Source: Rhodothermus marinus | GTDB taxonomy: Bacteria > Bacteroidota > Rhodothermia > Rhodothermales > Rhodothermaceae | Length of the DNA stretch: 64,000 nucleotides | Assembly: GCF_009936275.1 (NCBI RefSeq) | Contig: NZ_AP019797.1 | Coordinates: 1,967,890 to 2,031,889, forward strand | Reading direction: 5' to 3' | Shown here: positions 2,849 through 64,000 of the stretch, piece by piece | Layout: each line of letters starts with the position of its first letter | Numbering within the stretch: position 1 is the stretch's first letter | Made by a program: the position numbers and the translations under genes | The notes under the pieces: model-generated | The model's input: only the letters and a program-made list of their open reading frames with translations | The model's database searches: none | Told to the model about the DNA's origin: nothing

Positions 2849-4042
2849 TTACGCGAGGCGTTCCACCGCGACGGCCGTACCGCCGCCCGTACCGTGACAG
2901 ATGGCGGCCAAACCCAGTGTGCCGTTGTGCCGACGCAGCGCGTGCACGAGCGTTACGATGATCCGCGCGCCCGAGCAGCCGATCGGATGCCCCAGCGCAA
3001 TGGCGCCACCGTGCACGTTCAGCTTCTCGTAGGGCACGCCCAGCATGCGGTGAAACAGGATGCTGTTGATGGCAAAGGCCTCGTTGTTCTCGAACAGGTC
3101 GAAGTCTTCGATGCGGCGGTCCAGCCGATCCAGTAGCCGACGCACGGCCGGCACCGGCGCCTCCGGAAACCGCCACGGCTCGCCGGCCGCCCAGGCACCG
3201 CCCAGAAGTCGGGCGATGGGCCGGAGCCCGTAACGCTCGACGGCCGCCCGGCTGGCCAGCAGGAGCGCGGCCGCCCCATCGCTGATCTGGCTGCTGTTGC
3301 CGGCCGTCAGCACCCCGTCTTTCCTGAAAGCAGGCTTCAGGGCGGCCAGCGCCTCGCGCGTCGTATCGGGTCGGATGCCTTCGTCTCGATCCAGCGTTTT
3401 CGTCTCACGCCGCTCCCGGTAGGTGATCGGTACGATCTCGTCGGCAAAGTAGCAGCGCTCGGTGGCCTCGGCTGCCCGACGATGCGACATCAGCGCGATT
3501 TCGTCGAGTTCTTCGCGCGTGATACCATGTTCGGCGGCCAGGCGTTCGGTCTGCTCACCCATCGCCTCGCCACTCATGGGATCGGTCAGGCCGTCATAGA
3601 GCAATAGATCGACAAGCTGCTCCGGCGCCCCCAGCAGGAATTTGTAGCCCCAGCGCGCCCGCGCCGACAGGTAAAACCCGGCCTGCGACATCGACTCGAC
3701 GCCACCGGCCAGCAGCAGATCGGCCTCGCCAGCACGAATCATGGTGGCCGCCGTCATCACGCTGATCATGCCCGAAGAGCAGACCATGTCGACGGCCAGC
3801 CCGTCCACCTCTTTGGGGATACCGGCCTTCAGTGCGGCCTGACGCGGAATAAGCTGACCATGCCCCCCACGCAGCACGTTGCCAAAGATATAGCCGTCCA
3901 GATCTTTCCCTTCCACCCCGGCCCGCTCCAGGGCGGCCTTCATCGCATGCGCGGCCAGATCGACCGGACTGTAGTCCTTCAGCGCGCCGCCGAATTTGCC
4001 GATGGGCGTGCGTACGGCGGTAACGATATAGACGTCCTGCAT
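2849..4042 (-). CDS. Thiolase (acetyl-CoA acetyltransferase family)
   Basis: A 397-residue thiolase with the complete catalytic set: nucleophile Cys88 in VCSSGM, His352 in GHPIGCSG and Cys382 in CHGTGGG. Members either condense two acetyl-CoA or, more often in catabolic settings, cleave 3-ketoacyl-CoA. It is distinct from the paaJ thiolase at 29.2 kb. A site matching the operator found in the phenylacetate cluster lies 19 bases upstream of its start (4061-4072), suggesting a role in acyl-CoA degradation under the same control. The substrate is not decidable from sequence. Confidence 0.9.
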   Translation of the reverse strand: MQDVYIVTAVRTPIGKFGGALKDYSPVDLAAHAMKAALERAGVEGKDLDGYIFGNVLRGGHGQLIPRQAALKAGIPKEVDGLAVDMVCSSGMISVMTAATMIRAGEADLLLAGGVESMSQAGFYLSARARWGYKFLLGAPEQLVDLLLYDGLTDPMSGEAMGEQTERLAAEHGITREELDEIALMSHRRAAEATERCYFADEIVPITYRERRETKTLDRDEGIRPDTTREALAALKPAFRKDGVLTAGNSSQISDGAAALLLASRAAVERYGLRPIARLLGGAWAAGEPWRFPEAPVPAVRRLLDRLDRRIEDFDLFENNEAFAINSILFHRMLGVPYEKLNVHGGAIALGHPIGCSGARIIVTLVHALRRHNGTLGLAAICHGTGGGTAVAVERLA

Positions 4043-4060: not shown

Positions 4061-4072
4061 GGAAGCGGTTTC
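4061..4072 (-). promoter_or_regulatory. Candidate operator (paa-type palindrome) before thiolase
   Basis: GGAAGCGGTTTC, a 12-bp near-palindrome with a central CG, lies 19 bases before the thiolase ATG. A looser variant, GGAAAGCGGGTTTC, lies further upstream at 4095-4108. The same pattern occurs upstream of paaA, paaG, paaJ, the hydratase operon and hutU. Confidence 0.45.
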
Positions 4073-15065: not shown

Positions 15066-15107
15066 GGCTTCTTTTTTCGCGGGTTGATGGTCTGGCAGGG
15101 CCCGGCG

Positions 15108-15677
15108 CTAACCCGAGTGGCCGTCGGGGGTTTCCGATGGATCGTAGAACGGGTTGCGCTCGGGCTGCACCTCGCCACGATAGATGGCGCTGTATTCCAG
15201 GTAGTTCTGCGCGTAGCGGGCGATGCCGGCCACCTCCTCGTCGGTGAGCGTGCGCACCACACGTCCCGGCACGCCCAGCACCAGCGAGCGCGGCGGCACC
15301 TTCATGCCGGGCGGCACGAGCGCCCGCGCTCCAATGATCGTATCGCGTCCGATGACGGCGCCGTCGAGCACCACGGCGCCGATTCCAATCAGTACATTTT
15401 CCTCCACGGTACAGCCGTGCAGCACGGCGCCGTGCCCCACCGTCACGCGCGGCCCGATCAGCGTAGGGGCCGTCCCGCGCGTTACGTGGATGATCGCGCC
15501 GTCCTGGATGTTCGAGGCCTCGCCGATCCGGATCCAGTTCACGTCGGCCCGGACGACGGCGCCGTACCAGATGCTGGCGTAGGGCTCCAGCGTCACGTCG
15601 CCAATGACCACGGCGTTCGGCGCGATGAAGTTGGTGGCGTCGAATCGGGGGTAGGCGCCCAGAAAATCACGAATCAT
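15108..15677 (-). CDS. Gamma-carbonic-anhydrase-like hexapeptide protein
   Basis: A left-handed beta-helix protein of about 189 residues built from hexapeptide repeats (IAPNAVVIGDVTLEPYASIW, IGPRVTVGHGAVLHGCTV, IGIGAVVLDGAVIGRDTIIG). It has histidines in IIHVTRG and VGHGAVLHG that fit the trimeric gamma-CA/YrdA zinc site. Carbonic anhydrase activity is not assured in this subfamily. The ATG at 15677 is preferred over an in-frame TTG at 15689. It overlaps the end of mutS by 11 bases. It resembles paaY at 30.4 kb but is a separate branch. Confidence 0.85.
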   Translation of the reverse strand: MIRDFLGAYPRFDATNFIAPNAVVIGDVTLEPYASIWYGAVVRADVNWIRIGEASNIQDGAIIHVTRGTAPTLIGPRVTVGHGAVLHGCTVEENVLIGIGAVVLDGAVIGRDTIIGARALVPPGMKVPPRSLVLGVPGRVVRTLTDEEVAGIARYAQNYLEYSAIYRGEVQPERNPFYDPSETPDGHSG

Positions 15678-18511: not shown

Positions 18512-18535
18512 TTAGTTTGAATCGGAAGCGTTTCC
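18512..18535 (+). promoter_or_regulatory. paaA -7-like box and candidate operator
   Basis: TTAGTTTG (18512-18519) differs by one base from the TAnnTTTG box. Four bases later comes GGAAGCGTTTCC (18524-18535), a near-perfect 12-bp palindrome with a central CG. The ATG of paaA follows at 18552. The box and operator have the same spacing as at paaG, so a repressor bound here would cover the transcription start. Confidence 0.5.
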
Positions 18536-18551
18536 AACCAGTGTTTTCACC

Positions 18552-19517
18552 ATGAAAGACGAAGCTCTCCTGGAAGCCGAATTTCAGGCGCGTATCGACG
18601 CGGGCGAAAAGATCGAACCGAAAGACTGGATGCCGGAGCGCTATCGGCGCCAGCTCATCCGCATGATGTCGCAGCACGCCCATTCGGAAATCGTGGGCAT
18701 GTTGCCCGAAGGCAACTGGATCACGCGGGCACCCACGCTGCGCCGCAAGATGGCCCTGCTGGCCAAAGTGCAGGACGAGGCCGGACACGGCCTCTACCTC
18801 TACAGCGCCACCGAAACGCTGGGGGTCGATCGCTACCAGCTCATTCGCGACCTGCTCGAAGGCCGCGCCAAGTACTCGAACATATTCAACTACCCCACGC
18901 TCACCTGGGCCGACGTGGGCGTCATCGGGTGGTTCGTCGACGGCGCGGCGATCGTCAACCAGACCATGCTGGCCAAGAGCTCCTACGGCCCCTACGCCCG
19001 CGCCATGATCCGCATCTGCAAGGAGGAAGCCTTCCACAAGCGGCAGGGCTACGAGATCTGCGTGACGCTGGCGCGGGGCACGCCCGAACAGCGCCGGATG
19101 CTCCAAGACGCCATCAACCGCTGGTGGTGGCCCACGCTGATGATGTTCGGTCCACCGGATGACCAGTCGCCCAACAGCGCCGAACTGCTGCGCTGGCAGG
19201 TCAAGCGCAAGACGAACGACGAGCTGCGCCAGCACTTCATCAACATCACCGTGCCGCAGGTGCTGGCGCTGGGCATGACGCTTCCCGATCCGGAGTTGCG
19301 CTACGACGAAAAGACGGGCAACTGGCTGATCGGGCCGATCGACTGGGACGAGTTCTGGCGGGTGATCCGCGGCCACGGTCCCTGCAACCGCGAACGCCTG
19401 CAGGCCCGCCGCAAAGCCCACGAAGAGGGCGCCTGGGTTCGCGAGGCCGTGCAGGCCTATGCCCGCAAACGTCAACAGCAAGCTGCCTCAACCGCTGCCG
19501 AAGTAAGCCATGGCTGA
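18552..19517 (+). CDS. paaA: Phenylacetyl-CoA 1,2-epoxidase catalytic subunit
   Basis: A 321-residue di-iron oxygenase subunit of the PaaABCE complex, which epoxidises the aromatic ring of phenylacetyl-CoA. It contains the ferritin-like motifs [17 protein letters not shown] and [13 protein letters not shown], whose Glu and His residues ligate iron. The C-terminus ([22 protein letters not shown]) is typical of PaaA. It is first in paaABCD, overlapping paaB by 8 bases. The promoter region carries the shared palindrome. The reductase gene paaE is not found anywhere in this window. Confidence 0.96.
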
Positions 19518-19803
19518 AATGGAAAACTGCATGCGGCTGTGGGAGGTGTTCGTGCAGCCGCGCACGGGAGCCCCCCATGAGCATGCGGGAAGCGTGCGGG
19601 CTACCCACGCCGAGATGGCCCTCCAGCACGCCCGCGACGTATATGCCCGCCGGGGTCCGGTCGTCAGCATCTGGGTGGTTCCCACCGACGCGATCTACGC
19701 TACCAGACCCGGAGATGAAGGACCGTTCTTCGATCCGGCCGATAACAAGCCCTATCGCCACCCGCTCTTTTACAAGGTACCCCACGGTGTAAAAAACATC
19801 TGA
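19510..19803 (+). CDS. paaB: Phenylacetyl-CoA epoxidase subunit B
   Basis: A 97-residue PaaB, the small bridging subunit of the epoxidase. It starts [19 protein letters not shown] and has [25 protein letters not shown], as in the family. It overlaps the end of paaA and is 9 bases from paaC, so it is co-translated in the operon. The length matches the family norm of about 95 residues. Confidence 0.95.
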
Positions 19804-19812
19804 TTCCTGTTT

Positions 19813-20595
19813 ATGAATCTCGAAACGCTCGATGCGGCGCTGCGCCCGGCGCTGTTCGAATACCTGTTGTGCCTGGGCGACGATGCGCTGATTCTGGGCC
19901 ATCGACTCTCGGAGTGGTGCGGCCACGGCCCGTACCTCGAAGAAGACATTGCGCTGGCCAACCTGGCGCTCGACTGTCTGGGTCATGCCGAGGCGCTGCT
20001 GACGCTGGCCGGCGAGGTCGAAGGCAAAGGCCGCACGGCCGACGATCTGGCCTTTCTCCGGGATGCGTACGACTTCCGCAACGTGCAGATGGTCGAGCTG
20101 CCCCGGGGCGACTTTGCCTTCACGATCACGCGCCAGTTTCTGTTTGCCGCCTATGCCTGTCTGCTCTACGAAGCGCTGCAGCAGAGCGCCTTCGAACCAC
20201 TGGCCGGCATCGCGGCCAAAGCGCTCAAAGAAATGCGCTACCACCTGCGCCACAGCAGCGAATGGATGCGCTGCCTGGGCGACGGCACCGAGGAAAGCCA
20301 TCGGCGCGCGCAGACGGCTCTTGACGAGCTGTGGATGTACACGGGCGAGCTGTTCGAGGTGGACAACACGCTCCGCACGCTCATCGAAGCCCGCGTTGCG
20401 CCTGATATGGCCGCCCTGCAACTGAAGTGGCGGGAGCAGGTCGAAGCCGTCCTCCGCGAAGCTACCCTGACCGTTCCGGAGGATCCGCCCTACATGGCGA
20501 CAGGCGGGCGACGCGGCCATCATACGGAGCATCTGGGCCACCTGCTGGCCGAGATGCAGTTCCTGCAGCGGGCCTACCCGGGCGCTCAGTGGTAG
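19813..20595 (+). CDS. paaC: Phenylacetyl-CoA epoxidase structural subunit
   Basis: A 260-residue ferritin-fold subunit that pairs with PaaA and stabilises it. Diagnostic segments are DDALILGHRLSEWCGHGP, EDIALANLALDCLGHAE and EMRYHLRHSSEWMRCLGDGT. It sits between paaB (9-base gap) and paaD (22-base gap) on the same strand. Its iron site is usually non-functional in the family. Confidence 0.95.
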   Translation: MNLETLDAALRPALFEYLLCLGDDALILGHRLSEWCGHGPYLEEDIALANLALDCLGHAEALLTLAGEVEGKGRTADDLAFLRDAYDFRNVQMVELPRGDFAFTITRQFLFAAYACLLYEALQQSAFEPLAGIAAKALKEMRYHLRHSSEWMRCLGDGTEESHRRAQTALDELWMYTGELFEVDNTLRTLIEARVAPDMAALQLKWREQVEAVLREATLTVPEDPPYMATGGRRGHHTEHLGHLLAEMQFLQRAYPGAQW

Positions 20596-20617
20596 TCATC
20601 CAACCAACCTGTCGACC

Positions 20618-21118
20618 ATGACCCCTGCTGAAATCCTCGAAGCGCTGACCGAAGTCCGGGATCCGGAGATTCCGGTCCTGAACATCGTGGAGATGGGCAT
20701 CGTGCGCGACGTGCGCCTTGAAGGCGAGACGGTGCACGTCGACATCACCCCGACCTACACCGGCTGCCCGGCCATGCGCACCATCGAAGCGGCCATCGTA
20801 CAGACGCTTCGGGGTCGGGGATTTCAGCAGGTGGTCGTGCACAAGGTGTTTCGGGAGCCCTGGACCACAGACTGGATGACCGACGAGGCCCGCGAAAAGC
20901 TTCGGGCCTACGGTATCGCTCCGCCACCGCCTCGTGCGGACGAAGCGCCCGATCTGATCCCGCTCCCCTTCTCCGTAGCGCGTGGCCCCGCCGTCCCCTG
21001 CCCTTTCTGCGGCTCCGAGCAGACGCGCCAGACCAGCGCCTTCGGATCGACCGCCTGCAAAGCCCTCTTCTTCTGCGAAGCCTGCCGCCAGTCCTTCGAA
21101 TACTTCAAGGCGATCTGA
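20618..21118 (+). CDS. paaD: Phenylacetate catabolism Fe-S maturation protein
   Basis: A 166-residue protein with an N-terminal MIP18/DUF59 domain (EVRDPEIPVLNIVEMGIV, TPTYTGCPAM). The C-terminal zinc-ribbon-like tail has CPFCGSEQTRQTSAFGSTACKALFFCEAC, reported here in parts: CPFC near residue 127 and CEAC near 157. PaaD is thought to help assemble or deliver the metal or Fe-S centres of the epoxidase. It is the last gene of the forward paaABCD run. The next genes are a reverse-strand toxin/antitoxin pair, which sits where paaE is found in many clusters. Confidence 0.93.
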   Translation: MTPAEILEALTEVRDPEIPVLNIVEMGIVRDVRLEGETVHVDITPTYTGCPAMRTIEAAIVQTLRGRGFQQVVVHKVFREPWTTDWMTDEAREKLRAYGIAPPPPRADEAPDLIPLPFSVARGPAVPCPFCGSEQTRQTSAFGSTACKALFFCEACRQSFEYFKAI

Positions 21119-21146
21119 TCGTTTTTGCCTTCAAAGCTGTAACGAC

Positions 21147-21536
21147 TTAGCGAGAAATCGGTACGAGGTGCTCCTGAAGCCATGTAGCCAGCGCCTCTCG
21201 GCTCAACTCCCCGGAAGCCACTTTCATCACAACATCCTCTTGCTCATCAATATCAGCACGAATTTCAAAGCCATTGAGCACCAGAAATACTTCCATGGCC
21301 GCATGCCCGATACGCTTGTTTCCATCCAGAAAAGGATGATTCCGAATAAGCGCGTAACCAAGGGCCGCGGCTTTTCCAGCAAGCGATGGGTAAAGCTCTT
21401 GTCCCTCAAAAGTCAGGCGAGGTTGGGCCAGTGCCGACTCCAGGGCATTTAAATCGCGAATCCCCTCTTTCCCTCCCGACTGCGCCATGATCTGATGATA
21501 CAGCTCAAGAACCTCAGGAAGCGTCAGATAGCGCAT
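21147..21536 (-). CDS. doc: Doc-type toxin (Fic/Doc kinase family)
   Basis: A 129-residue Fic-fold protein with the Doc motif HPFLDGNKR (His67 to Arg75), the variant that phosphorylates EF-Tu in P1 Doc and does not AMPylate. The motif is intact, so the toxin may be active. It is the second gene of a two-gene unit, 5 bases after the antitoxin stop, which is the usual order. It converges on paaD. Chromosomal Doc modules are mobile between strains. Confidence 0.92.
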
Positions 21537-21541
21537 AAATT

Positions 21542-21745
21542 TCAGCGCTGGGCCAACCGCCGATACAATTCGGCGTTCTTCTCCAGTACACGTGCCATCG
21601 CCCTCTCGAAGGATTCGTCAGGAAGAGCCAGCCAGTCTTCGAGACTTTTCTGCAGCAAGGTCTCAGGCGTAAGCTGGTAGCGCCGGGCCTTTTCCTCCAA
21701 CTGTGCAAACACTGCGTCCGAGAGCGTAATGGTGAGTCGAACCAT
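21542..21745 (-). CDS. Ribbon-helix-helix-like antitoxin of the Doc module
   Basis: A 67-residue protein whose N-terminus ([34 protein letters not shown] in outline) has the strand-helix-helix pattern of CopG/Arc DNA-binding antitoxins. The C-terminal tail ([22 protein letters not shown]) is helical and would wrap the toxin. It directly precedes doc on the same strand. Such antitoxins neutralise the toxin and repress their own operon. The classification rests on pattern and context. Confidence 0.75.
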
Positions 21746-21843
21746 TTATCCCTCTTTGATGCCTCTCACTTAAAGCAGGATTTTTCTTAGCAGTTGCCAT
21801 GCGAAAAGTTTCTAACTGGCACCGAAAGCAAACCGAAAGCAAT

Positions 21844-23535
21844 TTACTTAATCCGATACCCGCCTTCTTCGTTCGCGAAGATCCAGGCCACGACCTCACC
21901 GATCTCGATCGTGTCGTGCAGGTAAGTGGTGCGGGTAATCGAGGCGGTGCCCTGCGTGTGCAGGTACGGCTTGGCGGCCATCATGCGCTCGAAGCGTTCC
22001 TGCCAGCGACGCATGTTCACCGGCCGGAGGTCCACCCAGCCCTTGCGCGCCCATCGGTCGATGTCTTTCGGCGTGACCGGCACCTCGTCGTAAATGCTTT
22101 CGGGAATGTTGATGAACGGTCCCCGGATGAGTTGCTGGCCGTCCGGTGCCAGAATGGGCACGCCGATCGAGATGATCTGATTGCGAAGCGTCGCGTCCGT
22201 CTCCAGGTAGCGATAGAGCGTGTCGGCCACTTCTTCGGCGGGCGTCTGACAGACGGCCTTCAGCGTCTTAAAGTTGAGCCGGAGCAGGTGCGCTTCGTAG
22301 AGCAGCTTGGAGAGTTCGGGTGGTCCGAGCTGTCCGAGCGCCACGCTGTGGCCGTTGGATTCCCGTTCGAGCTGGCGCAACCGCCGGAGTGCCGTATGTC
22401 GCAACACGCCGGCCCGATAGCTCGGCACCATCACGTTGCTGTCGATGCCCGCGATGATGTCGTGCCCGGTGTTGCTCCCCTTGATCTCCAGCACCACCTG
22501 TTCGGCGATCTCCTCGGGCGTGAGGAATTCCATCTGCCCGATGTGCGTGATCGTTTCGAACTCACCGCGGGCGAAGAAGCCGTTCTCGCCGGTATCGACC
22601 CCGGCCATCACCAGCTCGCCCTGCTTGCGGTAACGGCACTCGTCTTCTCGCAGCACCAGGCGATCCTGCAGCGGCTCCCGGCGGCCCTCGTAGACGAACT
22701 GCGGACGCCCGCGCCGACGCACCGGCTGCAGCGCCACGCGCCGGTAGCCGATCATGGCGGCCGGCTTCACCTCCTTGACCAGCGGCCCGCCGGGCGTGCG
22801 CGCCATCAGGAATAGCAGGCCCGTATGCGCAAAGGCCATGGCCGTCTTCATCATGAGCGGCACGCTGGGCCGGTCCTCGCTGTGCGTGTAGGGGATGTTC
22901 AGCCCCATGCCACCGGTGCCCGTCGTGCCGATCTTCACGTAGACGCGCGTGCCCACCTCGCACATGGCCCGATGCAGAAGGCGGATGTGCCGGATGAGCT
23001 GAAGCGCCGCCTGCGAAATGAGCAGCGTCTCGACGTCGGTGGTCAACGTCTCACGAACCGACGGATCGTCGGGCGTCTGCTGTAGCTGCTGCAAAGCCTC
23101 ATGCGTCTTGAGGCTCAACGGTTCGACTTCCTGGTAGCTGAGCGCGGTAGCCGTGTTGATGCAGTCCACGATCACGTCGGGCCGATGCGTGCGGATCATC
23201 CGCACGAGCACCGAGCGTTCGTAGGCGGCGTCGATGTCGCCGAACAGGTCCTCGTAGAGCACCTCGCGATAGGCCGGATTGCCGAGCAACTGCTCACGCG
23301 ACAGCTCCCGGAATTCTTCCCGCACGAACACGTTGCCCCACTCGCCCACAAATTCCACTTCCGGAAACTCCTGCCGCACTTCCGAGAGCAGTTCCTCGAC
23401 CTCCTCGCGAAAGAGACTGGCCACCACCACCTTGCGGGGATGAAGCTGACGGCTCACCTCGCGCACGATCTGGGAGCCGACCAGCCCGGCTCCGCCCAGC
23501 ACAAGAAAACTTTCGTCACGCACCATGATGGTCAT
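21844..23535 (-). CDS. Rossmann-fold NAD(P)-binding protein, SDR-like, unknown substrate
   Basis: A 563-residue protein. The N-terminal dinucleotide-binding motif GGAGLVGS (14-21) follows a short beta strand, and VIVDCINTATALSYQEVEP resembles the NNAG region of extended SDRs. A C-terminal region of about 300 residues (QVVLEIKGSNTGHDIIAGIDSN and so on) is unfamiliar. It is last in a reverse operon with enoyl-CoA hydratase and fused E1, 15 bases after E1. The operon carries the phenylacetate-type operator, so a role in acyl or keto-acid metabolism is likely. No reaction is assigned. Confidence 0.6.
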   Translation of the reverse strand: MTIMVRDESFLVLGGAGLVGSQIVREVSRQLHPRKVVVASLFREEVEELLSEVRQEFPEVEFVGEWGNVFVREEFRELSREQLLGNPAYREVLYEDLFGDIDAAYERSVLVRMIRTHRPDVIVDCINTATALSYQEVEPLSLKTHEALQQLQQTPDDPSVRETLTTDVETLLISQAALQLIRHIRLLHRAMCEVGTRVYVKIGTTGTGGMGLNIPYTHSEDRPSVPLMMKTAMAFAHTGLLFLMARTPGGPLVKEVKPAAMIGYRRVALQPVRRRGRPQFVYEGRREPLQDRLVLREDECRYRKQGELVMAGVDTGENGFFARGEFETITHIGQMEFLTPEEIAEQVVLEIKGSNTGHDIIAGIDSNVMVPSYRAGVLRHTALRRLRQLERESNGHSVALGQLGPPELSKLLYEAHLLRLNFKTLKAVCQTPAEEVADTLYRYLETDATLRNQIISIGVPILAPDGQQLIRGPFINIPESIYDEVPVTPKDIDRWARKGWVDLRPVNMRRWQERFERMMAAKPYLHTQGTASITRTTYLHDTIEIGEVVAWIFANEEGGYRIK

Positions 23536-23550
23536 TCGTTTGTTTACGGC

Positions 23551-25683
23551 TCAAAAAGTGACCAGCGCCTGCATGGCCTCGGCAATCTGCGACACCCCCG
23601 GCACGGTGGCATCGAGCAGCTGGGGGTTGTAGGGAATCGGAATGTCCGGGACGGCCACCCGCTCGACGGGCGCATCCAGGTAGGTGAAGGCGTCGCGGGC
23701 CAGCACGGCGGCAATCTCCGCGCCGAAGCCGGCCGTGAGCGTGTCTTCGTGCACGATCAGGCACCGATTGGTCTTCTGGACCGAATGCAGCACGGCCGCC
23801 CGGTCCCAGGGCCGCAGCGTGCGCAGGTCGATGATCTCGGCGTCGATGCCCGTTTCCCGAGCCGCTTCTTCGCAGCGATGCACCATGGCGCCCCAGGTGA
23901 CCACGGTGAGCGCCTCGCCGGAACGGACGATCCGGGCACGTCCGAACGGCAACACGAAGTCGTCGCCGGGATAGGGACGCCGGGCGGCCGGATGGTCCAG
24001 CAGCAGCCGGTGCTCGAAGAAGATGGTGGGATCGAGCGCCCGCATGGCGGCCCGGAGCAGCCCGACGGCGTCCTCGGCATTCGACGGATAGGCCACCTGC
24101 CAGCCGATTGCGTGTACCCAGCGCACTTCGTCGGAAACGCTGTGCCAGGGATCGCCCACGCGGGCAAGCCCGCCGGGCATGCGCACCACGATCGGTGCGG
24201 CAAAGCGGTTGGCCGTGCGCCAGCGGATCGTACCGCAGTTGTTGAGCTGCTCGGTGGCCGGATCGGCGTATTTCCGAAACTGAATCTCGGCCACCGGCAT
24301 CAACCCGGCCAGCGCCATGCCGACGGCCCGTCCGACAATGCCCTCCTCGGACAGGCTGGTGTCGAACACGCGCGCTTCGCCGAACTCCTCCTGCAGTCCG
24401 AGCGTGGCCGTGTGCACGCCCCCTTTTTTGCCCACGTCTTCGCCGAAGACCACCACGCGCGGATTGGTGCGCAGCTCGTGGGCCAGCGTCCGACGAATCG
24501 CCTCCACCATGTTGATGCGCGGCGGCTCCGGCCGGGGTCGGTCGGTGCCCTGCGGAAGCACCACACCTTCCGGGGCCATACCGCCGGCCTGCTGAAGCTC
24601 CGGCGTGCCGTCGGGTCCCACCTCGGCGAAGACGTAGCGGGTCACCCGGGACGGATCCGGGTCCGGACGAGCAAGCGCCGCCTCCAGGGCTGCCTCCACC
24701 TCGCGGGCCACCTCCACCTCCAGCTCGGCCCACGCCTCGGGCGACAGCAGCGAAGGCACCAGAAACGCCCGGAGTGCCGGGAGGGGATCATGTGCCCGTT
24801 CGGCCTCCAGCACCTCCGGCGGCTTGTAGGCCTGGTTGTCGTGGCCGGAGTGGCCCGAAAGCCGGGGCATTGTCAGGCGCAACAGCACTGGTCCGTCGCC
24901 GCCCCGCACACGGCGCACCGCTTCGTGCAGCAGCCGGGCGGCCTCCTCCGGCTGCGTGCCGTCGCCGTCAAGCACCTGCAGGCTCTCGAACGCCGCCAGA
25001 TTTTTCGCGATGTTGCCGCCCGGCGTCTGCAGTTCGCGCGGGACCGAAATGGCGTAGCCGTTGTCCTCGATGTAGAAGAGCACGGGAAGTCGGAGCGTCG
25101 TGGCGATGTTCAGCGCGGCCCAGAAGCCGTTGGTCGCCACCGAGCCCTCGCCGCCGTGCACCACGGCCAGCGCGCCCCGGTAGGCGTCCTCCTGAAGCAC
25201 GTCGCGCCGGTAGCAGATGGCCTGCGCCCAGCCGACGCCCGGCGTGTACTGCGAGCCCACGTCGCCCGCCATGGGCAACACGGTGGGACCATTGCGGCCG
25301 GGAAGGTTGCAGACCACCCCCACGTCGCGGCCGTCGCTGTAGGCGCCCGCCTTGCCCAGCGAGGCGGCCAGCGCTTCTTCGGGCGAGACGCCCAGCGCCA
25401 GCATCAGCGGCCGCGAGCGGTAGTAGGTGCTGACGCCGTCCTTCGGGTGCGTCAGGAGCTGCCCGAGCAGGACCTGCGCCAGCTCGTGCCCCTTCGCCGA
25501 AAACTGATACCGCACCCTGCGCTCGGGCAGCAGACGCGTCTCCTCCAGTTCATCGAGATAGCGTGAGGTCAGCACCAGACGGGCCACGCGCAGCCAGTCG
25601 AAGGTCGCCTCCGGCGCAGCGGCCGGTGAACTCCTGCGCGTTTTGCGCCGGGTGGTCGCAGTGCGGTTTTTCCCTCGCATCAC
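23551..25683 (-). CDS. 2-oxoacid dehydrogenase E1, alpha and beta subunits fused
   Basis: A 710-residue thiamine-diphosphate enzyme carrying both halves of a branched-chain/pyruvate-type E1. The alpha part (about 25-330) has the ThDP motif starting GGEGSVATNGF and ending EDNGYAIS. The beta part (about 375-710) starts INMVEAIRRTLAHEL and has VFGEDVGKKGG and VGMALAGLMPVAEIQF. An unusual basic N-terminal tail (GKNRTATTRRKTRRSS) precedes it. It sits 3 bases after the hydratase gene in the same operon. E2 and E3 genes are not nearby. The keto-acid substrate is unknown; branched-chain or aromatic keto acids are plausible. Confidence 0.85.
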   Translation of the reverse strand: MMRGKNRTATTRRKTRRSSPAAAPEATFDWLRVARLVLTSRYLDELEETRLLPERRVRYQFSAKGHELAQVLLGQLLTHPKDGVSTYYRSRPLMLALGVSPEEALAASLGKAGAYSDGRDVGVVCNLPGRNGPTVLPMAGDVGSQYTPGVGWAQAICYRRDVLQEDAYRGALAVVHGGEGSVATNGFWAALNIATTLRLPVLFYIEDNGYAISVPRELQTPGGNIAKNLAAFESLQVLDGDGTQPEEAARLLHEAVRRVRGGDGPVLLRLTMPRLSGHSGHDNQAYKPPEVLEAERAHDPLPALRAFLVPSLLSPEAWAELEVEVAREVEAALEAALARPDPDPSRVTRYVFAEVGPDGTPELQQAGGMAPEGVVLPQGTDRPRPEPPRINMVEAIRRTLAHELRTNPRVVVFGEDVGKKGGVHTATLGLQEEFGEARVFDTSLSEEGIVGRAVGMALAGLMPVAEIQFRKYADPATEQLNNCGTIRWRTANRFAAPIVVRMPGGLARVGDPWHSVSDEVRWVHAIGWQVAYPSNAEDAVGLLRAAMRALDPTIFFEHRLLLDHPAARRPYPGDDFVLPFGRARIVRSGEALTVVTWGAMVHRCEEAARETGIDAEIIDLRTLRPWDRAAVLHSVQKTNRCLIVHEDTLTAGFGAEIAAVLARDAFTYLDAPVERVAVPDIPIPYNPQLLDATVPGVSQIAEAMQALVTF

Positions 25684-25686
25684 ATC

Positions 25687-26466
25687 TCAGGATTTACGGG
25701 CACGCCGACGCTCCAGGAAGGCGGTCATGCGCCGGTACTTCTCTTCATCCTCGAAGAGGACGGCCTGCATGAGCGTCTCCAGGGTCAGCGCGGCGTCGGT
25801 GCTCATCTCGGCGGTGGCGTTCAGCGCCATCTTGGCGAAGCGCACGGCCAGCGGACTTGCCTCGGCGATCTCCGCGGCCAGCGCCCGTGCTTTTGCCAGC
25901 ACCTCGTCGTCCGGCACCACGTAGTTGACCAGGCCAATCGCGAGTGCTTCCGAAGCATCGAGGATACGTCCGGTAAAAATCAGCTCGCGCGCCTTGCCCA
26001 TGCCCACCAGACGCGGCAGCCGGTAGGTGGCCCCGGCGCCCGGAATGATGCCCAGCCGGACTTCGGGCTGACCGAAGCGGGCGCTCTCGCCGGCCACACG
26101 CAGATCACAGGCCATGGCCAGCTCGCACCCGCCGCCCAGCGCCCACCCCCGCACGGCCGCAATGGTCGGTACCGGAAACTGCTCGATCTCCCGAAACAGG
26201 CTGTTGTTGATGCGCTGCAGCGCTTCGGCCCGTCCGCGCTCCCGGAGTTCGGCAATGTCGGCTCCGCTGACGAACGCCTGTCCGCCGGCTCCGGTGAAGA
26301 TCAACGCGCGCACATCGTCCCGGCCGGCCAGTTGCTCGAGCAACCGGCGCACCTCCCGCACCATCTCCAGGTTGAGCGCATTACGCACCTCCGGGCGGTT
26401 GAAGGTGCAGCATACGATGCCCCGGTCGTCCTCTTCGACCAGCAGCGTGGCAAACGAATCGGTCAT
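25687..26466 (-). CDS. Enoyl-CoA hydratase (probable PaaF role)
   Basis: A 259-residue crotonase-fold protein with oxyanion-hole segments (GAGGQAFVSGADIAEL and GWALGGGCELAMACDLRVA) and both catalytic glutamates (the GGCE glutamate and PEVRLGIIPGAGATYRLPR). This is the normal hydratase pattern. The ATG at 26466 is chosen because GGAG lies 6 bases before it; in-frame ATGs at 26472 and 26478 are alternatives. In the phenylacetate pathway PaaF hydrates 2,3-dehydroadipyl-CoA, and no other hydratase of this kind is seen in the cluster. It heads the operon with fused E1 and the Rossmann protein. Confidence 0.85.
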   Translation of the reverse strand: MTDSFATLLVEEDDRGIVCCTFNRPEVRNALNLEMVREVRRLLEQLAGRDDVRALIFTGAGGQAFVSGADIAELRERGRAEALQRINNSLFREIEQFPVPTIAAVRGWALGGGCELAMACDLRVAGESARFGQPEVRLGIIPGAGATYRLPRLVGMGKARELIFTGRILDASEALAIGLVNYVVPDDEVLAKARALAAEIAEASPLAVRFAKMALNATAEMSTDAALTLETLMQAVLFEDEEKYRRMTAFLERRRARKS

Positions 26467-26479
26467 AGGCATCTCCATC

Positions 26480-26522
26480 TGGAAGCGCTTCTATTATACC
26501 AAACCGCCGGGACCTTCTTCAA
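26480..26522 (-). promoter_or_regulatory. Promoter and operator of the hydratase-E1 operon
   Basis: On the reverse strand, TTGAAG (26517-26522) and TATAAT (26493-26498) are separated by 18 bases, an almost canonical -35/-10 pair. Immediately downstream lies AGAAGCGCTTCC (26481-26492), containing the perfect 10-bp palindrome GAAGCGCTTC. The start codon is at 26466. A repressor here would block initiation. Confidence 0.6.
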
Positions 26523-26609
26523 GCCAATCCGAGAGGCCGGGCAATTTTCGAACGGCATTCGTACACGCACGAACCCCGGAGGGACTTTCCGTTCTGGGTG
26601 GCCTTTTCA

Positions 26610-26633
26610 TAAGTTTGCTTCGGAACCGCTTTC
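26610..26633 (+). promoter_or_regulatory. paaG -7 box and candidate operator
   Basis: TAAGTTTG (26610-26617) fully matches the TAnnTTTG consensus. It is followed after four bases by GGAACCGCTTTC (26622-26633). The paaG ATG is at 26649. No TTG is evident in the -33 position, which may mean activation or weak basal expression. Confidence 0.5.
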
Positions 26634-26648
26634 AAACCGAATGCTGCC

Positions 26649-27440
26649 ATGAACTACCAGTTCATTCGCTACGAAGTCACGGATGGCGTTGCCACGCTGA
26701 CGCTGAACCGGCCGGATGTGCTCAACAGCTTCCACCGGCCCATGGCCGATGAAACGATCGATGCGCTCCGGCGGGCCGCCGACGATCCGGCCGTCCGCGC
26801 CGTCGTGCTGACAGGCGCCGGCCGGGCCTTCTGCGCGGGACAGGACCTGCAGGCCGTGCTGCCCCGCGAAGGTGAGCCGGCGCCGGACCTCGGCGAAATC
26901 GTCCGCGCCCAGTACAACCCGATCGTCCGGCTCATCCGCCACACCGAGAAACCGTTTGTGGCCGCCGTCAACGGCGCGGCCGCCGGGGCCGGTGCCAACA
27001 TTGCGCTGGCCTGCGACTTCGTGGTGGCCGCCGAAAACGCCGCCTTTATTCAGGCGTTTGCGCGCATCGGACTGATTCCCGACAGCGGCGGCACCTTTCT
27101 GCTGCCCCGTCTGGTCGGGCTGGCCCGGGCCACGGCCCTGATGATGCTGGCCGAAAAGCTTCCGGCCACCGAGGCGCACACCATGGGACTCATCTACCGG
27201 GTATGTCCGGCCGACCGCCTGATGGACGAGGCGATGACGCTGGCGCGTCGCCTGGCTGCAATGCCCACCCGGGCGCTGGGCATGATCAAACGGGCGCTGA
27301 ACCGCACCTTCACGAATGATCTGGATGCCCAGCTCGAACTGGAAGCCGAGCTGCAGGCCGAAGCCGGCCGCACCCACGACTATCAGGAAGGCGTGGCCGC
27401 CTTTCTGGAAAAGCGCACTCCGGTCTTTCAGGGACGATAA
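26649..27440 (+). CDS. paaG: Ring-1,2-epoxyphenylacetyl-CoA isomerase
   Basis: A 263-residue crotonase-fold enzyme matching PaaG. It isomerises the unstable epoxide to oxepin-CoA and also shifts a double bond later in the pathway. It has GRAFCAGQDL (oxyanion hole) and ARIGLIPDSGGTFLLPRLVG, where the Asp of PDSGG replaces the second Glu of hydratases, as in PaaG and other isomerases. It is the first of the forward genes paaGHIJYZ and is separated from paaH by 3 bases. Confidence 0.93.
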   Translation: MNYQFIRYEVTDGVATLTLNRPDVLNSFHRPMADETIDALRRAADDPAVRAVVLTGAGRAFCAGQDLQAVLPREGEPAPDLGEIVRAQYNPIVRLIRHTEKPFVAAVNGAAAGAGANIALACDFVVAAENAAFIQAFARIGLIPDSGGTFLLPRLVGLARATALMMLAEKLPATEAHTMGLIYRVCPADRLMDEAMTLARRLAAMPTRALGMIKRALNRTFTNDLDAQLELEAELQAEAGRTHDYQEGVAAFLEKRTPVFQGR

Positions 27441-27443
27441 GCC

Positions 27444-28640
27444 ATGACGCAACCGCTCACCACCGCCACGCCAATCGGCGTCGTCGGTGCCGGCACCATG
27501 GGACGCGGCATTGCTCAGGTGGCCGCCACCGTTGGCCACCCGGTCCTGCTTCACGACAGCAATCCCCGGGCACTCGAAGACGCCCGCGCCTACCTGACGC
27601 GCATTCTGGGACGGCTCGTGGAGAAAGGCAAACTGCCCCCCGGGCGGGATGCCGAAATCCTGGGCCGTATTTCGTTCATACGCGACGAACTGCAGCCGCT
27701 GGCCTCCTGCGGGCTGATCATCGAAGCCATTATCGAGGAGCTGGCGGCGAAACAGACCCTTTTTGCGCAACTGGAGCGCCTGGTGGCGCCCGAAGCCATC
27801 CTGGCCACCAACACCTCGTCGCTCTCGGTGACGGCCATTGCCGCCGCCTGTGAGCGTCCGGAGCGCGTGCTCGGGTTGCACTTTTTCAACCCGGCGCCGC
27901 TGATGCCACTCGTCGAAGTGGTGCCCGGGGTGGCCACCGCCGCCGAAGTGGTCGCGCAGGCCCGCGCCCTGATGGAGACCTGGGGCAAATCGCCGGTCGT
28001 CGCCCGCGACACGCCGGGCTTCATTGTCAACCGGGTGGCGCGTCCGTTCTACGGCGAGGCGCTGCGCATCCTGGAGGAAGGGATCGCCGACGTGCCCACC
28101 ATCGACTGGGCCATGCGCACGATCGGCGGCTTCCGGATGGGGCCCTTCGAACTGATGGACCTGATCGGGAACGACATCAACTTCCGGGTGACCGAAACGC
28201 TCTGGAAAGCCTTCTTCTACGAACCGCGCTACCGGCCCTCGTTTACGCAACAGCGCATGGTCGAGGCGGGACGACTGGGCCGCAAAACCGGTCTCGGCTT
28301 CTACGACTACCGGGAAGGCGCCACCAACCCGGAGCCCACCACCGATCCGGCACTCGGCGAGCGCATCTTCCGGCGCATTCTGTCCATGTTGATCAACGAA
28401 GCCGTCGATGCCGTCTTCTGGCGCGTGGCCTCGCCGGCCGACATTGACCGGGCCATGCAACTGGGCGTAAACTATCCGAAGGGCCTGCTGCACTGGGCCG
28501 ACGAACTGGGCCTGGAGACCGTGCTGGGCTGGATGGAAGCACTCTACGATACCTATCGGGAAGATCGCTACCGCCCCAGCCCGCTCTTTCGCCAGATGAT
28601 CGAACGAGGGGCCCGTTTTTTTGAAGAAGCCTCCTCCTGA
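27444..28640 (+). CDS. paaH: 3-hydroxyadipyl-CoA dehydrogenase
   Basis: A 398-residue 3-hydroxyacyl-CoA dehydrogenase. The NAD-binding motif is GVVGAGTMGRGIAQV. The catalytic-domain signature is FNPAPLMPLVEVV with the active His-Glu pair, followed by DTPGFIVNRVARPFYGEALR. A second C-terminal 3HCDH segment (ILSMLINEAVDAVFWRVASP) makes it longer than the 280-residue single-domain form. It oxidises 3-hydroxyadipyl-CoA to 3-oxoadipyl-CoA in this context. It lies between paaG and paaI. Confidence 0.93.
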   Translation: MTQPLTTATPIGVVGAGTMGRGIAQVAATVGHPVLLHDSNPRALEDARAYLTRILGRLVEKGKLPPGRDAEILGRISFIRDELQPLASCGLIIEAIIEELAAKQTLFAQLERLVAPEAILATNTSSLSVTAIAAACERPERVLGLHFFNPAPLMPLVEVVPGVATAAEVVAQARALMETWGKSPVVARDTPGFIVNRVARPFYGEALRILEEGIADVPTIDWAMRTIGGFRMGPFELMDLIGNDINFRVTETLWKAFFYEPRYRPSFTQQRMVEAGRLGRKTGLGFYDYREGATNPEPTTDPALGERIFRRILSMLINEAVDAVFWRVASPADIDRAMQLGVNYPKGLLHWADELGLETVLGWMEALYDTYREDRYRPSPLFRQMIERGARFFEEASS

Positions 28641-28667
28641 CGTAATCGAACCAAACGTAAGCGCCGT

Positions 28668-29108
28668 ATGCCTGCCGAAACTCACGACGAAACCACCACG
28701 CAACGCGCCCGCCAGATTGTGGATCAGATGATGGCGCACGATGCCTTCAGCCAGTGGCTGGGCATCGAAGTGCTGGAGGTTGCGCCGGGCCGGGCCGTCG
28801 TGCGCATGACCGTGCGTCCGGAAATGCTCAACGGCTTTGCCGTGGCGCATGGCGGGATCGCTTTCGCCCTGGCCGACAGTGCGCTGGCCTTCGCCTCGAA
28901 CACCTGCGGCCTGGTGACCATGACGCTGGAAAGCTCGATCTTTTTTGCCACGCCCGTTCGCGCCGGTGACGTGCTCACGGCCACGGCCGAGGAGGTGTCG
29001 GCCGGCAACCGCGTGGCGCTCTACGACGTGGTGGTCACGCGCGCCGACGGCACCCGCGTGGCCTTCGTGCGCGGCACCGTCTACCGCACGAAACAGGCCC
29101 ACGCCTGA
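28668..29108 (+). CDS. paaI: Phenylacetyl-CoA-type thioesterase
   Basis: A 146-residue hotdog-fold thioesterase of the PaaI family. It has the motif NGFAVAHGGIAFALADSALAFASN, in which HGG and the following Asp are catalytic. PaaI hydrolyses stalled CoA esters so that free CoA is not depleted by dead-end intermediates. The first 30 residues are helical (ETHDETTTQRARQIVDQM), as is usual for the family. It lies 27 bases after paaH and 51 bases before paaJ. Confidence 0.93.
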   Translation: MPAETHDETTTQRARQIVDQMMAHDAFSQWLGIEVLEVAPGRAVVRMTVRPEMLNGFAVAHGGIAFALADSALAFASNTCGLVTMTLESSIFFATPVRAGDVLTATAEEVSAGNRVALYDVVVTRADGTRVAFVRGTVYRTKQAHA

Positions 29109-29119
29109 TCCGTTTCTTC

Positions 29120-29131
29120 GGAAGCGCTTTC
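29120..29131 (+). promoter_or_regulatory. Candidate operator before paaJ
   Basis: GGAAGCGCTTTC, the best fit to the shared 12-bp palindrome, lies in the 51-base gap between paaI and paaJ, 28 bases before the paaJ ATG at 29160. No clear -7 box precedes it. It may control an internal promoter or act as a secondary site. Confidence 0.45.
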
Positions 29132-29159: not shown

Positions 29160-30368
29160 ATGCGGGACGCCTATATCATCGACGGCGTGCGGACGCCCAT
29201 CGGCCGCCTGGGCGGCGCCCTGGCCACCGTCCGGGCCGACGACCTGGCCGCCCACGTGCTGCGCGCCCTGCTGGATCGCCACCCCGAACTCGACCCGGCC
29301 GCCATCGACGACGTGTACATGGGCTGCGCCAACCAGGCCGGTGAAGACAACCGCAACGTGGCCCGCATGGCACTGCTGCTGGCCGACCTGCCCCCCAGTG
29401 TGCCGGGGGTCACGATCAACCGACTCTGCGCCTCCGGCATGAGCGCCGTGGTGGAAGCCGCCCGCGCCATCCGGGCAGGCGACGGCGACCTCTACCTGGC
29501 CGGCGGCATCGAACACATGACGCGCGCGCCCTTCGTGCTCTCCAAAGCCAGCCGCCCCTTCGGGCGCGACGTCGAACTCTACGACACGAGCCTGGGCTGG
29601 CGCTTCGTCCATCCGAAAATGGAAGCCCGCTACGGCGCCGAGCCCATGGGCTGCACCGCCGAAAACCTCGTGGAACGGTACGGCATCGCCCGTGAGGATC
29701 AGGATCTGTTCGCCTACCGCTCCCACAAAAAGGCGGCCGCTGCCCGCGAGCAAGGGCGCTTCGCGCTGGAGATCGTACCCGTCGAAGCCCCCCAGCCCAA
29801 AGGCCCGCCCCGGCTGGTAAAAGACGACGAGCACATTCGCCCGGACACCACGCTCGAAGCGCTCGCCAAGCTACCGCCCGTCTTCCGCAAAGGGGGCACC
29901 GTGACGGCAGGCAATTCCTCCGGCCTCAACGACGGCGCCTGCGCGCTGCTGCTGGCCTCGGAAGAGGCCGTCCGCCGCTTCAACCTGAAGCCGAAGGCCC
30001 GCATCGTTAGCGCGGCCGTCGTCGGTGTGGAGCCGCGCATCATGGGCATTGGACCGGTCGAAGCCGCCCGCCGCGCCCTCCGACAGGCCGGCCTGAGTTT
30101 AGACGATCTGGATGTCATCGAACTCAACGAAGCCTTTGCCGCCCAGGTGCTGGCCTGCACGCGGCAATGGGGTCTGGCCGACGACGACCCGCGCCTGAAT
30201 CCCAACGGCGGCGCCATTGCACTTGGCCACCCGCTGGGCATGTCGGGCGCCCGACTGATCCTGACGGCCACCGTCGAGCTGGAGCAACGACAGGCCCGCT
30301 ACGCGCTCTGTACGCTCTGCGTGGGCGTCGGACAGGGGATGGCGACCGTGATCGAACGCATTGCTTAA
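29160..30368 (+). CDS. paaJ: 3-oxoadipyl-CoA thiolase
   Basis: A 402-residue thiolase with nucleophile Cys in NRLCASGMSAV, His in GHPLGMSGARL and the second Cys in TLCVGVGQGMA. The start MRDAYIIDGVRTPIGRLGGAL and the segment LGWRFVHPKMEARYGAEPMG are characteristic of PaaJ/PcaF. It cleaves 3-oxoadipyl-CoA to succinyl-CoA and acetyl-CoA, and in the phenylacetate pathway also 3-oxo-5,6-dehydrosuberyl-CoA. It is flanked by paaI and paaY. Confidence 0.96.
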   Translation: MRDAYIIDGVRTPIGRLGGALATVRADDLAAHVLRALLDRHPELDPAAIDDVYMGCANQAGEDNRNVARMALLLADLPPSVPGVTINRLCASGMSAVVEAARAIRAGDGDLYLAGGIEHMTRAPFVLSKASRPFGRDVELYDTSLGWRFVHPKMEARYGAEPMGCTAENLVERYGIAREDQDLFAYRSHKKAAAAREQGRFALEIVPVEAPQPKGPPRLVKDDEHIRPDTTLEALAKLPPVFRKGGTVTAGNSSGLNDGACALLLASEEAVRRFNLKPKARIVSAAVVGVEPRIMGIGPVEAARRALRQAGLSLDDLDVIELNEAFAAQVLACTRQWGLADDDPRLNPNGGAIALGHPLGMSGARLILTATVELEQRQARYALCTLCVGVGQGMATVIERIA

Positions 30369-33159: not shown

Positions 33160-33243
33160 CGGATCTGGACGGTTGCGTAACAAGATCCGTTTGAACCCGG
33201 AGGGATTCGCGTCGTAAATTTCTGTGGAAGCTCTTCCGACGCG

Positions 33244-33798
33244 ATGACGGACCTCCTTTTTGAAGACCTGCAGATGCTCCGGCATCTTCGCCGGCGGGCG
33301 GCATGGACGGTGGTCGTTGCCGCGGTCGGCTTCGTGGGCGGTCTGGTGCTGCTGAGCGCGTTCAGTCGTCATCGCATCGCGGATCTCTCCGTGGCCGGAC
33401 TTCTCTGCCTGGTGTGGGGTAGCCTGACGGCCTGGGCAGCGCTGCGGCTCTATCGCCTCCAGCATCAGGTCTGGCGTCTGCGGCTTTCCGAAACCGGAAT
33501 GACCGGGTACGACTATGGTCGCCATGCCTGGACGATCGACTGGGTGCATGTCGATCGTCTGAACCTGACCGACGAAGGGCTGCGTGTGGAAACGTTCGAC
33601 GGTCGGCACCTGCTCGTCCCGAACTGGCACGCCGATTTTTCCGCACTCGGCCATGCGCTGCTCGACTACGCGGAGCATCTCGGCTGCCCCCTTTACCTGA
33701 ATGGCCGACCTTTTGAATCCGTCGATCTGCGCACGCTGCTGCCCCTGCCGCCCGAAGTGGCCGTGCCGACCGACTCGCCGCGCCAGCCCTCCCGTTAA
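33244..33798 (+). CDS. Two-helix membrane protein with PH-like cytoplasmic domain
   Basis: A 184-residue protein with two adjacent membrane helices near residues 20-70 (TVVVAAVGFVGGLVLLSAF and a helix ending in AWAALRLY). A beta-rich soluble part follows (WRLRLSETGMTGYDYGRHAWTIDWVHVDRL), which looks like a bacterial PH/YcxB-type domain. No family is claimed with certainty. Upstream there is a possible -7 box, TAAATTTC (33215-33222), and a near-palindrome, GGAAGCTCTTCC (33226-33237), loosely like the paa operator but without the central CG. Confidence 0.65.
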   Translation: MTDLLFEDLQMLRHLRRRAAWTVVVAAVGFVGGLVLLSAFSRHRIADLSVAGLLCLVWGSLTAWAALRLYRLQHQVWRLRLSETGMTGYDYGRHAWTIDWVHVDRLNLTDEGLRVETFDGRHLLVPNWHADFSALGHALLDYAEHLGCPLYLNGRPFESVDLRTLLPLPPEVAVPTDSPRQPSR

Positions 33799-63844: not shown

Positions 63845-63856
63845 GGAAGCGCTTTT
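63845..63856 (+). promoter_or_regulatory. Candidate operator before hutU
   Basis: GGAAGCGCTTTT matches the shared palindrome at 11 of 12 positions. It is preceded by TTAAATTG (63832-63839), a weak -7-like box five bases upstream. The hutU ATG is at 63877. Confidence 0.45.
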
Positions 63857-63876: not shown

Positions 63877-64000
63877 ATGGAGACGACGCCGATCACCGTT
63901 CGCGCCCCGCGCGGCACCACGTTGCACTGCAAGGGCTGGCATCAGGAGGCCGCCCTCCGCATGCTGATGAACAATCTGGACCCGGAAGTCGCCGAGAAAC
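63877..64000 (+). CDS. hutU: Urocanate hydratase, N-terminal fragment (runs off window)
   Basis: The first 41 codons read [20 protein letters not shown], then [20 protein letters not shown]. This is the conserved beginning of urocanase, the second enzyme of histidine degradation, which converts urocanate to imidazolonepropionate. The ATG at 63877 is the natural start. The remaining part, about 500 residues, lies outside the window. The gene starts 75 bases after pduO with its own candidate promoter and operator, so it is probably a separate unit. Confidence 0.9.

Follow-up and report, generated by a model that had tools for sequence, protein, structure and literature searches.

The DNA analysed here, called the window throughout, is a stretch of 64,000 nucleotides from the single-contig genome of Rhodothermus marinus (G000:C1:1967890-2031889 of 3,430,829 bases), and our subject is a set of six 12-base palindromes, each a predicted operator in front of a predicted target gene of catabolism. 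An acetyl-CoA C-acetyltransferase (PhaA-type thiolase; 2849..4042, minus strand; NF042967 731.1 bits, cut-off 740; TIGR01930 447.4 bits, cut-off 240.55) is preceded by GAAACCGCTTCC on the gene strand (4061..4072, minus), and paaA, encoding phenylacetyl-CoA epoxidase subunit A (18552..19517, plus; TIGR02156 525.7 bits, cut-off 280), by GGAAGCGTTTCC (18524..18535, plus). A unit consisting of an enoyl-CoA hydratase (25687..26478, minus) and, next to it, a 2-oxoacid dehydrogenase E1 (23551-25683, minus), both named with NCBIfam and Pfam, has its site at 26481..26492 (minus), reading AGAAGCGCTTCC on the gene strand and GGAAGCGCTTCT on the plus strand. Further to the right follow GGAACCGCTTTC (26622..26633, plus) before paaG (26649..27440, plus; TIGR02280 345.5 bits, cut-off 345.15), GGAAGCGCTTTC (29120..29131, plus) before paaJ, or 3-oxoadipyl-CoA thiolase (29160..30368, plus; TIGR02430 638.3 bits, cut-off 597), and GGAAGCGCTTTT (63845..63856, plus), 3' of a TTAAATTG box, before the 5' part of hutU, encoding urocanate hydratase (63877..64000, plus; TIGR01228 965.1 bits, cut-off 375), the remainder of which lies outside the window (L056). 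The thiolase site was taken from the pattern scan, the other five from the scan together with relatives.

All six palindromes of the original prediction were recovered by a pattern scan of both window strands. Most fit GGAASCGBTTYC as had been proposed; the hydratase site deviates by one base on either strand, and the hutU site shows the single mismatch ascribed to it. Allowing up to one mismatch, this pattern had 15 matches on both window strands, compared with a mean of 4.25 and a maximum of 14 in 100 dinucleotide shuffles. Two additional one-mismatch sites of the window lie at 53564-53575, within an open reading frame (ORF), and at 33226-33237, where the CT-centred near-palindrome GGAAGCTCTTCC stands 6 bases 5' of an ORF (33244-33798). 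The spacing from site to start codon, expected to be within about 35 bases, was between 2 and 28 in all six cases (thiolase 18, paaA 16, hydratase 2-14 with three possible ATGs, paaG 15, paaJ 28 and hutU 20). The TAnnTTTG-like box described at paaA and paaG was found as a full fit at paaG (TAAGTTTG), while that of paaA (TTAGTTTG) has only five of the six fixed letters; in both promoters the box is separated from the palindrome by four bases, and TATAAT adjoins the hydratase site, both as claimed.

Genes were called as longest ORFs for this analysis (coding share of the window 0.933, i.e. 93%), and a shadow ORF over paaG-paaJ was removed by hand before sites were counted inside and outside genes. 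Genome-wide, RRAANCGNTTYY occurs at 77 places and its reversed pattern at 36; the stronger form GGAAGCGCTTYY is present at 22 places (a perfect palindrome gives two of the 23 hits), as against seven for the reversed control. A genome scan had been suggested to see whether the motif is equally common at random positions, and it revealed enrichment outside genes: 17 of the 22 GGAAGCGCTTYY places are non-genic, and the distance to a called start codon is no more than 60 bases for 13 of these and no more than 100 for 16. The remaining five are inside genes, at 344888 (where a gene start was called), 1199459, 2021453, 2705585 and 3263081. The chance of finding at least 17 of 22 outside genes is p = 2e-16 at the coding share given above and 3e-12 with 12% of non-coding DNA.

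Genes behind the start-proximal sites were named with NCBIfam and Pfam. Those of fat and acyl-CoA metabolism comprise an acyl-CoA dehydrogenase, electron-transfer flavoprotein (ETF) beta, two acyl-CoA ligases, an acyl-CoA carboxyltransferase, the thiolase and the enoyl-CoA hydratase; aromatic catabolism is represented by paaA, paaG and paaJ, and amino-acid catabolism by hutU, glutamate dehydrogenase (GDH), a threonine-type ammonia-lyase and the 2-oxoacid dehydrogenase E1, with a methionine-gamma-lyase relative 110 bases from its site. Pyruvate phosphate dikinase (PPDK), fructose-1,6-bisphosphatase (FBPase) and class I fructose-1,6-bisphosphate (FBP) aldolase act in the gluconeogenic direction; the sites of PPDK and FBPase are near-consensus in this genome, and near-consensus versions at several targets read GAAAACGCTTTC, AAAAGCGCTTCT, GGAATCGCTTTC and AAAAGCGCTTTC. 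Sites were also seen before genes with no obvious place in this theme, namely murB and those of an unnamed protein, PAS proteins, a beta-propeller protein, a symporter and a molybdenum-hydroxylase-type subunit. The catabolic genes of the proposed "catabolic regulon" are thus in place, but the term is too narrow, as gluconeogenesis and GDH are included, and the six window sites appear as part of a predicted regulon much larger than the window. It should be added that the class I FBP aldolase gene is preceded by three consecutive site-like palindromes, one with 13-base spacing (L062 ~1970-2026; G000:C1:2631051-2631107).

The window promoters were compared with those of G008 and of five further members of the genus. 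The site is kept in all four paaJ orthologues reached, in four of four hydratase promoters, in the single hutU promoter, in all five readable paaA upstreams and in two of four paaG promoters, having decayed in G014 and G099; the same-promoter comparison envisaged in the original prediction therefore gave conservation, only partial at paaG. The hydratase promoter retains TATAAT followed by A[AG]AAGCGCTT[CT]C, its flanks having diverged. The upstream of G014 paaA was cut off in this comparison, yet its site was present in a separate upstream scoring; the hydratase match of G026 (a paralogue) and the "thiolase" rows (paaJ paralogues) were left out, so that the comparison covers the other five promoters.

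Across the class, GGAAGCGCTTYY has at least one match in 113 of 117 genomes, a count that includes chance matches within genes. In G017 and G009, which belong to another order (guanine-cytosine (GC) content 0.38-0.46 in the stretches read), 15 of 16 motif places are outside ORFs of at least 80 codons, and the sixteenth (L108) lies within a doubtful ORF of 102 codons. Targets there are GDH, ATP-dependent phosphoenolpyruvate carboxykinase (PEPCK), FBPase, acyl-CoA dehydrogenase, 3-hydroxyacyl-CoA dehydrogenase, alanine dehydrogenase, fumarase and a pyruvate-formate-lyase relative; the two orders have FBPase, GDH, acyl-CoA dehydrogenase and paaA as common targets. One motif in front of many operons of several pathways, conserved in related genomes, is the pattern of a global LacI regulon, as predicted here. 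A further GGAAGCGCTTCT site in G009 (L114, C1:1879178) lies about 340 bases 5' of an ORF judged by eye to be dnaA-like.

LacI-family operators are even palindromes with a central CG (PMC4052901), a form that suits the LacI-type operator guessed at the outset. Nine LacI-family genes of this genome exceed the PF00356 cut-off. The best candidate (L077, G000:C1:1739845-1740888) lies 227 kb left of the window, in agreement with the earlier remark that the window itself holds no matching regulator. It carries the recognition helix VAISTVSR and a helix-turn-helix domain scoring 75.6 bits (1739884-1740021; cut-off 27), followed by a hinge and a periplasmic-binding-protein-like effector domain; the protein gives near full-length matches to chains of CelR, PurR and CcpA. 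The structure model has the normal LacI-family fold (mean pLDDT 89.2); in comparison with solved structures, CcpA rows lead with PurR rows close behind, and no effector was therefore read from them. Relative to PurR and CelR, the candidate has an insertion, TEKHAG, before a GF pair. K229 and H230 are invariant in all 19 aligned proteins chosen by their VAISTVSR helix, most of which, elsewhere, are 42-59% identical to the candidate; a role of these two residues in phosphate binding is a guess. The nearest named relative is that of Rhodothermus sp. S012_61 (97% identity). Among 24 chosen relatives two LacI types recur, VAISTVSR (the candidate) and SIATVSR (type B, here L081).

With an orthologue defined by E below 1e-120, the candidate type was present in 103 of the 117 class genomes and was treated as not found in G001, G004, G056, G061, G068, G078, G079, G082, G089, G096, G097, G099, G101 and G115. 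Among the 57 helices read, 51 were VAISTVSR; four genomes of genus g34 had STATVSR (G023, G048, G072) or SVATVSR (G098), and two had SISTVSR (G065, G083). The FBPase gene was found in 85 of the 117 genomes, and 82 upstreams were scored, partial or contig-edge hits (G020, G041, G071) being left out; paaA is present in 45. Scoring of both promoters left out the last 30 bases. RRAANCGNTTYY was found upstream of FBPase in 45 of 67 genomes with the candidate, in one of 11 where it was not found and in none of four with a changed helix (1/15 for the latter two groups together; Fisher p = 2e-5). The corresponding counts for paaA were 25 of 32, one of nine and three of four (p = 0.005, last two pooled); genomes within one family are related, and none of these counts represents independent events. 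The reversed control pattern was absent from all 82 FBPase and all 45 paaA upstreams. Both lists have one and the same exception, G099, an assembly of 260 contigs and 96% completeness from the same genus, in which all five congeners carry the protein.

Because coding sites lift GC-rich genomes that lack the candidate above the reversed control as well, this control is too weak by itself, and position inside or outside genes was used as the criterion. In genomes with no candidate found, or with an altered helix, nearly all sites examined are within genes. In 11 such genomes of family f16, 22 of 23 places are inside ORFs, the single other place being L327 of G068, and three of the genomes have none; in G004, G061 and G097, 14 of 15 loci examined (of 31 places) are inside an ORF, some of them weakly coding, and one has no ORF call. 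In G065, with the SISTVSR helix, one of two loci is outside ORFs. The perfect palindromes of G048, G023 and G115, considered as a conserved target, were rejected, being located inside ORFs. G005, whose LacI genes are the candidate and B alone, has eight motif hits (control 1), and its congener G056, with B alone, has none. Furthermore, the candidate and FBPase genes are 1.2 kb apart in G084 (C177:16863, plus, and 14640-15656, minus) and 11-12 kb apart in G016, G022, G032, G045, G047, G059, G067 and G081, which belong to one family (f4) and are not independent.

Helix and operator also vary together in genus g34. In 70 paaA and FBPase sites from genomes that carry the protein and in which no change of helix was seen, the eight central bases were AAGCGCTT in 52, AAGCGGTT in ten, AACCGCTT in five, AAGCGTTT in two, AAACGGTT in one and AACCGGTT in none. 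The paaA sites of the changed-helix genomes, GAAACCGGTTTC in G048 and G072 (directly 3' of TATATGTTC) and GGAACCGGTTTC in G098, all contain AACCGGTT; in G023 no paaA site was found. Congeners without the protein (G068, G078, G096) keep the paaA promoter region, from which, as judged by eye, the palindrome is gone. A protein that contacts the inner base pair would be expected to change jointly with its site in this way.

From this co-occurrence and co-variation we infer that the candidate binds the palindromes. These are probably the operators of one class-wide LacI-family repressor, here encoded at G000:C1:1739845-1740888, whose predicted role is to silence the catabolism of fats, aromatics and amino acids, as well as gluconeogenesis, on sugar. 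When 24 start-proximal sites were chosen in this genome, a TAnnTTTG-like box (five of six letters) was seen to end 0-6 bases before seven of them; a stretch lying 20 bases higher up gave none of 24, and the downstream side one of 24. Sites would thus often lie near the transcription start in this genome, for which repression is the simplest reading. Many sites are on or directly 3' of the probable -7 box, a position in which a dimer on the DNA would prevent transcription from starting. For genes that spare sugar, repression would be sensible only if the protein is bound while sugar is present, and this logic predicts a sugar-derived co-repressor: the repressor would be bound at high sugar flux, probably with a glycolytic metabolite.

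Several observations weigh against this assignment. No full operator was found upstream of the L077 gene itself, and among 80 related loci a full site within 350 bases was seen at four; autoregulation consequently failed as a route to the regulator. Helix readings cover 57 of the 103 candidate-bearing genomes, and the Fisher values overstate independence because the losses are few, in about five lineages. Full sites are missing from 22 of 67 FBPase and seven of 32 paaA promoters of candidate-bearing genomes; G019 has neither, the FBPase upstream of G030 yielded no site, and the near-miss AAAAGCGCTTAC is seen in G005 and G027. Of the f4 genomes mentioned above, seven are without the full FBPase site, and the eighth, G045, has AGAAACGGTTTT 245 bases from the gene. 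Family f7 keeps the candidate (VAISTVSR in the three read) and yet has few sites, with none in G039 and three of five loci outside ORFs in G028. The box precedes two of 12 sites in G017 and G009, versus none upstream and two downstream, which is no clear excess. Finally, the switch to AACCGGTT was seen at a single promoter of three genomes that are related to each other, and this genome too has GGAACCGGTTTC sites, before glycan-type genes. These two sites, at G000:C1:2211379 (L006) and 2246464 (L007), lie 5' of an inositol-dehydrogenase-like and a SusC-like gene, respectively, which suggests a second LacI regulon with a AACCGGTT core. As a separate observation, sites of the palindrome type discussed here were seen in relatives 75-227 bases 5' of other LacI-family genes (L167, L174, L175, L176, L179, L184), perhaps regulators placed under the same control.

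Expression values listed for a relative, Roseithermus sacchariphilus strain RA, on xylan (PMC7409140) show falls of PEPCK (0.34), GDH (0.33), FBP aldolase (0.15), FBPase (0.56), fumarase (0.39) and 3-hydroxyacyl-CoA dehydrogenase (0.51). The same source lists threonine dehydratase as rising to 2.04, an enoyl-CoA hydratase and an acyl-CoA carboxylase beta subunit as unmoved, and most of the tricarboxylic acid cycle genes given there as falling too. As listed, this transcriptome agrees loosely with the predicted regulon and does not discriminate, and in these respects it counts with the observations above.

Among the alternatives, it is unlikely, though conceivable, that the pairing of candidate and operator holds but follows the logic of Cra, the free protein binding at sugar scarcity, being released by a sugar phosphate and acting as an activator at some promoters. 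Cra likewise governs gluconeogenesis genes, and PckR has been described as an activator of pckA. However, the 13 non-genic GGAAGCGCTTYY places within 60 bases of a start, some directly 3' of a -7-like box, are in a blocking rather than an activating position, and the falls of PEPCK, GDH, FBP aldolase and FBPase on xylan fit repression on sugar, though not specifically.

Real operators with another binder, be it B (L081), L083, L079 or a regulator of another family, seem to us unlikely. This explanation draws on the nine LacI-family genes above the cut-off, on L079, whose own gene follows GGAAACGTTTCC adjoining TATAAT, and on the scope of our regulator search, which was confined to the LacI family; a non-LacI regulator that disappeared from the lineages lacking the candidate is conceivable and, in this respect, counts against the candidate. 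On the other side, B is present in G056 and G072, neither of which has motif sites, and its own gene is preceded by GTAAGCGCTTAC; G005 has the motif with the candidate and B alone and therefore has no L083 or L079 type; and the candidate's helix and the paaA site change together. B was accordingly rejected, as was L083, which has the helix SKVSVSKAL, no site before its gene and no counterpart in motif-bearing G005. For the record, L081 (G000:C1:284359-285414) is the second class-wide LacI type, with the SIATVSR helix, and L083 (G000:C1:1965440-1966501), 1.4 kb left of the window, is a divergent LacI-family gene without such a palindrome in the 250 bases upstream. L079/L053 (G000:C1:1635721-1636816) has a second palindrome, GAAAACGTTTTT, 30 bases on from the one at TATAAT and 5' of its own start, and is probably autoregulated through a different type of site.

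That the motif is a functionless by-product of codon usage or dinucleotide bias is highly improbable and already contradicted. In its favour, the motif also exceeds the reversed control in two genomes with no candidate found, G061 (19 vs 7) and G097 (14 vs 3), and all nine sites examined there (of 23 places) are coding. Against it, the sites of this genome are mostly non-genic, orthologous promoters retain the 12 bases while their flanks diverge, and the reversed control is absent from the FBPase and paaA upstreams.

Compared with known systems, the candidate can be read as a catabolite-control repressor that would work like CcpA, yet is neither CcpA nor Cra. It scores 181.5 bits against the ccpA equivalog cut-off of 442.35, its predicted targets are aromatic, fat and amino-acid catabolism with gluconeogenesis, and its lineage is other than the Firmicutes of CcpA. 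CcpA is activated by HPr-Ser46-P. With Cra (FruR) of Enterobacteria the candidate shares the LacI family and, by prediction, the control of gluconeogenesis, but its 75.6 bits are below the Cra cut-off of 385, and Cra activates gluconeogenic genes, whereas operators at gene starts suggest repression; the Cra site is similar in form to the palindrome described here. The candidate is also below the PurR and RbsR cut-offs. The proposed co-repressor logic would be that of CcpA and PurR and opposite to that of LacI and Cra. PaaR and PaaX are local TetR- or GntR-type repressors of paa genes, induced by phenylacetyl-CoA, whereas the paa genes here would be one target of a global set.

Global LacI-type regulators of carbon metabolism described so far include CcpA, FruR/Cra, GluR, GapR and PckR (PMC4052901), CceR of Alphaproteobacteria (PMC5507952) and AraQ/MalR1 of Bifidobacteria (PMC6882875). 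PckR, GapR and GluR were discovered via comparative genomics; as predicted for the candidate, these three, CceR (all of Alphaproteobacteria) and AraQ/MalR1 are global, but glycolytic and Entner-Doudoroff targets are prominent in the accounts of them. The survey in PMC4052901 spans seven phyla, and "Rhodotherm" is absent from its main text. Among the open-licence PMC papers listed in our searches, we saw none on the palindrome motif or on a global carbon regulator in this class, be it for Rhodothermus, Salinibacter or Balneola. Judged by their titles, the papers listed for the motif were unrelated except PMC5110547 (GalR); two papers listed for Balneola also mention a regulon (PMC7739468 and PMC8565304, the latter on LexA).

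We give about even chances to the fullest form of the proposal, in which one LacI protein, orthologous to neither CcpA nor Cra, would exert carbon catabolite repression throughout the class Rhodothermia, acting on phenylacetate, fatty-acid, histidine and amino-acid breakdown and on gluconeogenesis with a sugar metabolite as co-repressor, its helix and operators having been rewritten together in one genus (VAISTVSR/AAGCGCTT to STATVSR/AACCGGTT). The cause of the fall of carbon-metabolism genes on xylan was described as unclear by the Roseithermus authors (PMC7409140), and the predicted repressor is a possible reason for it. The differences in helix and operator between genera constitute a natural experiment on DNA specificity in the LacI family, and a named candidate, a site and a list of targets make catabolite control in this group of bacteria directly testable.

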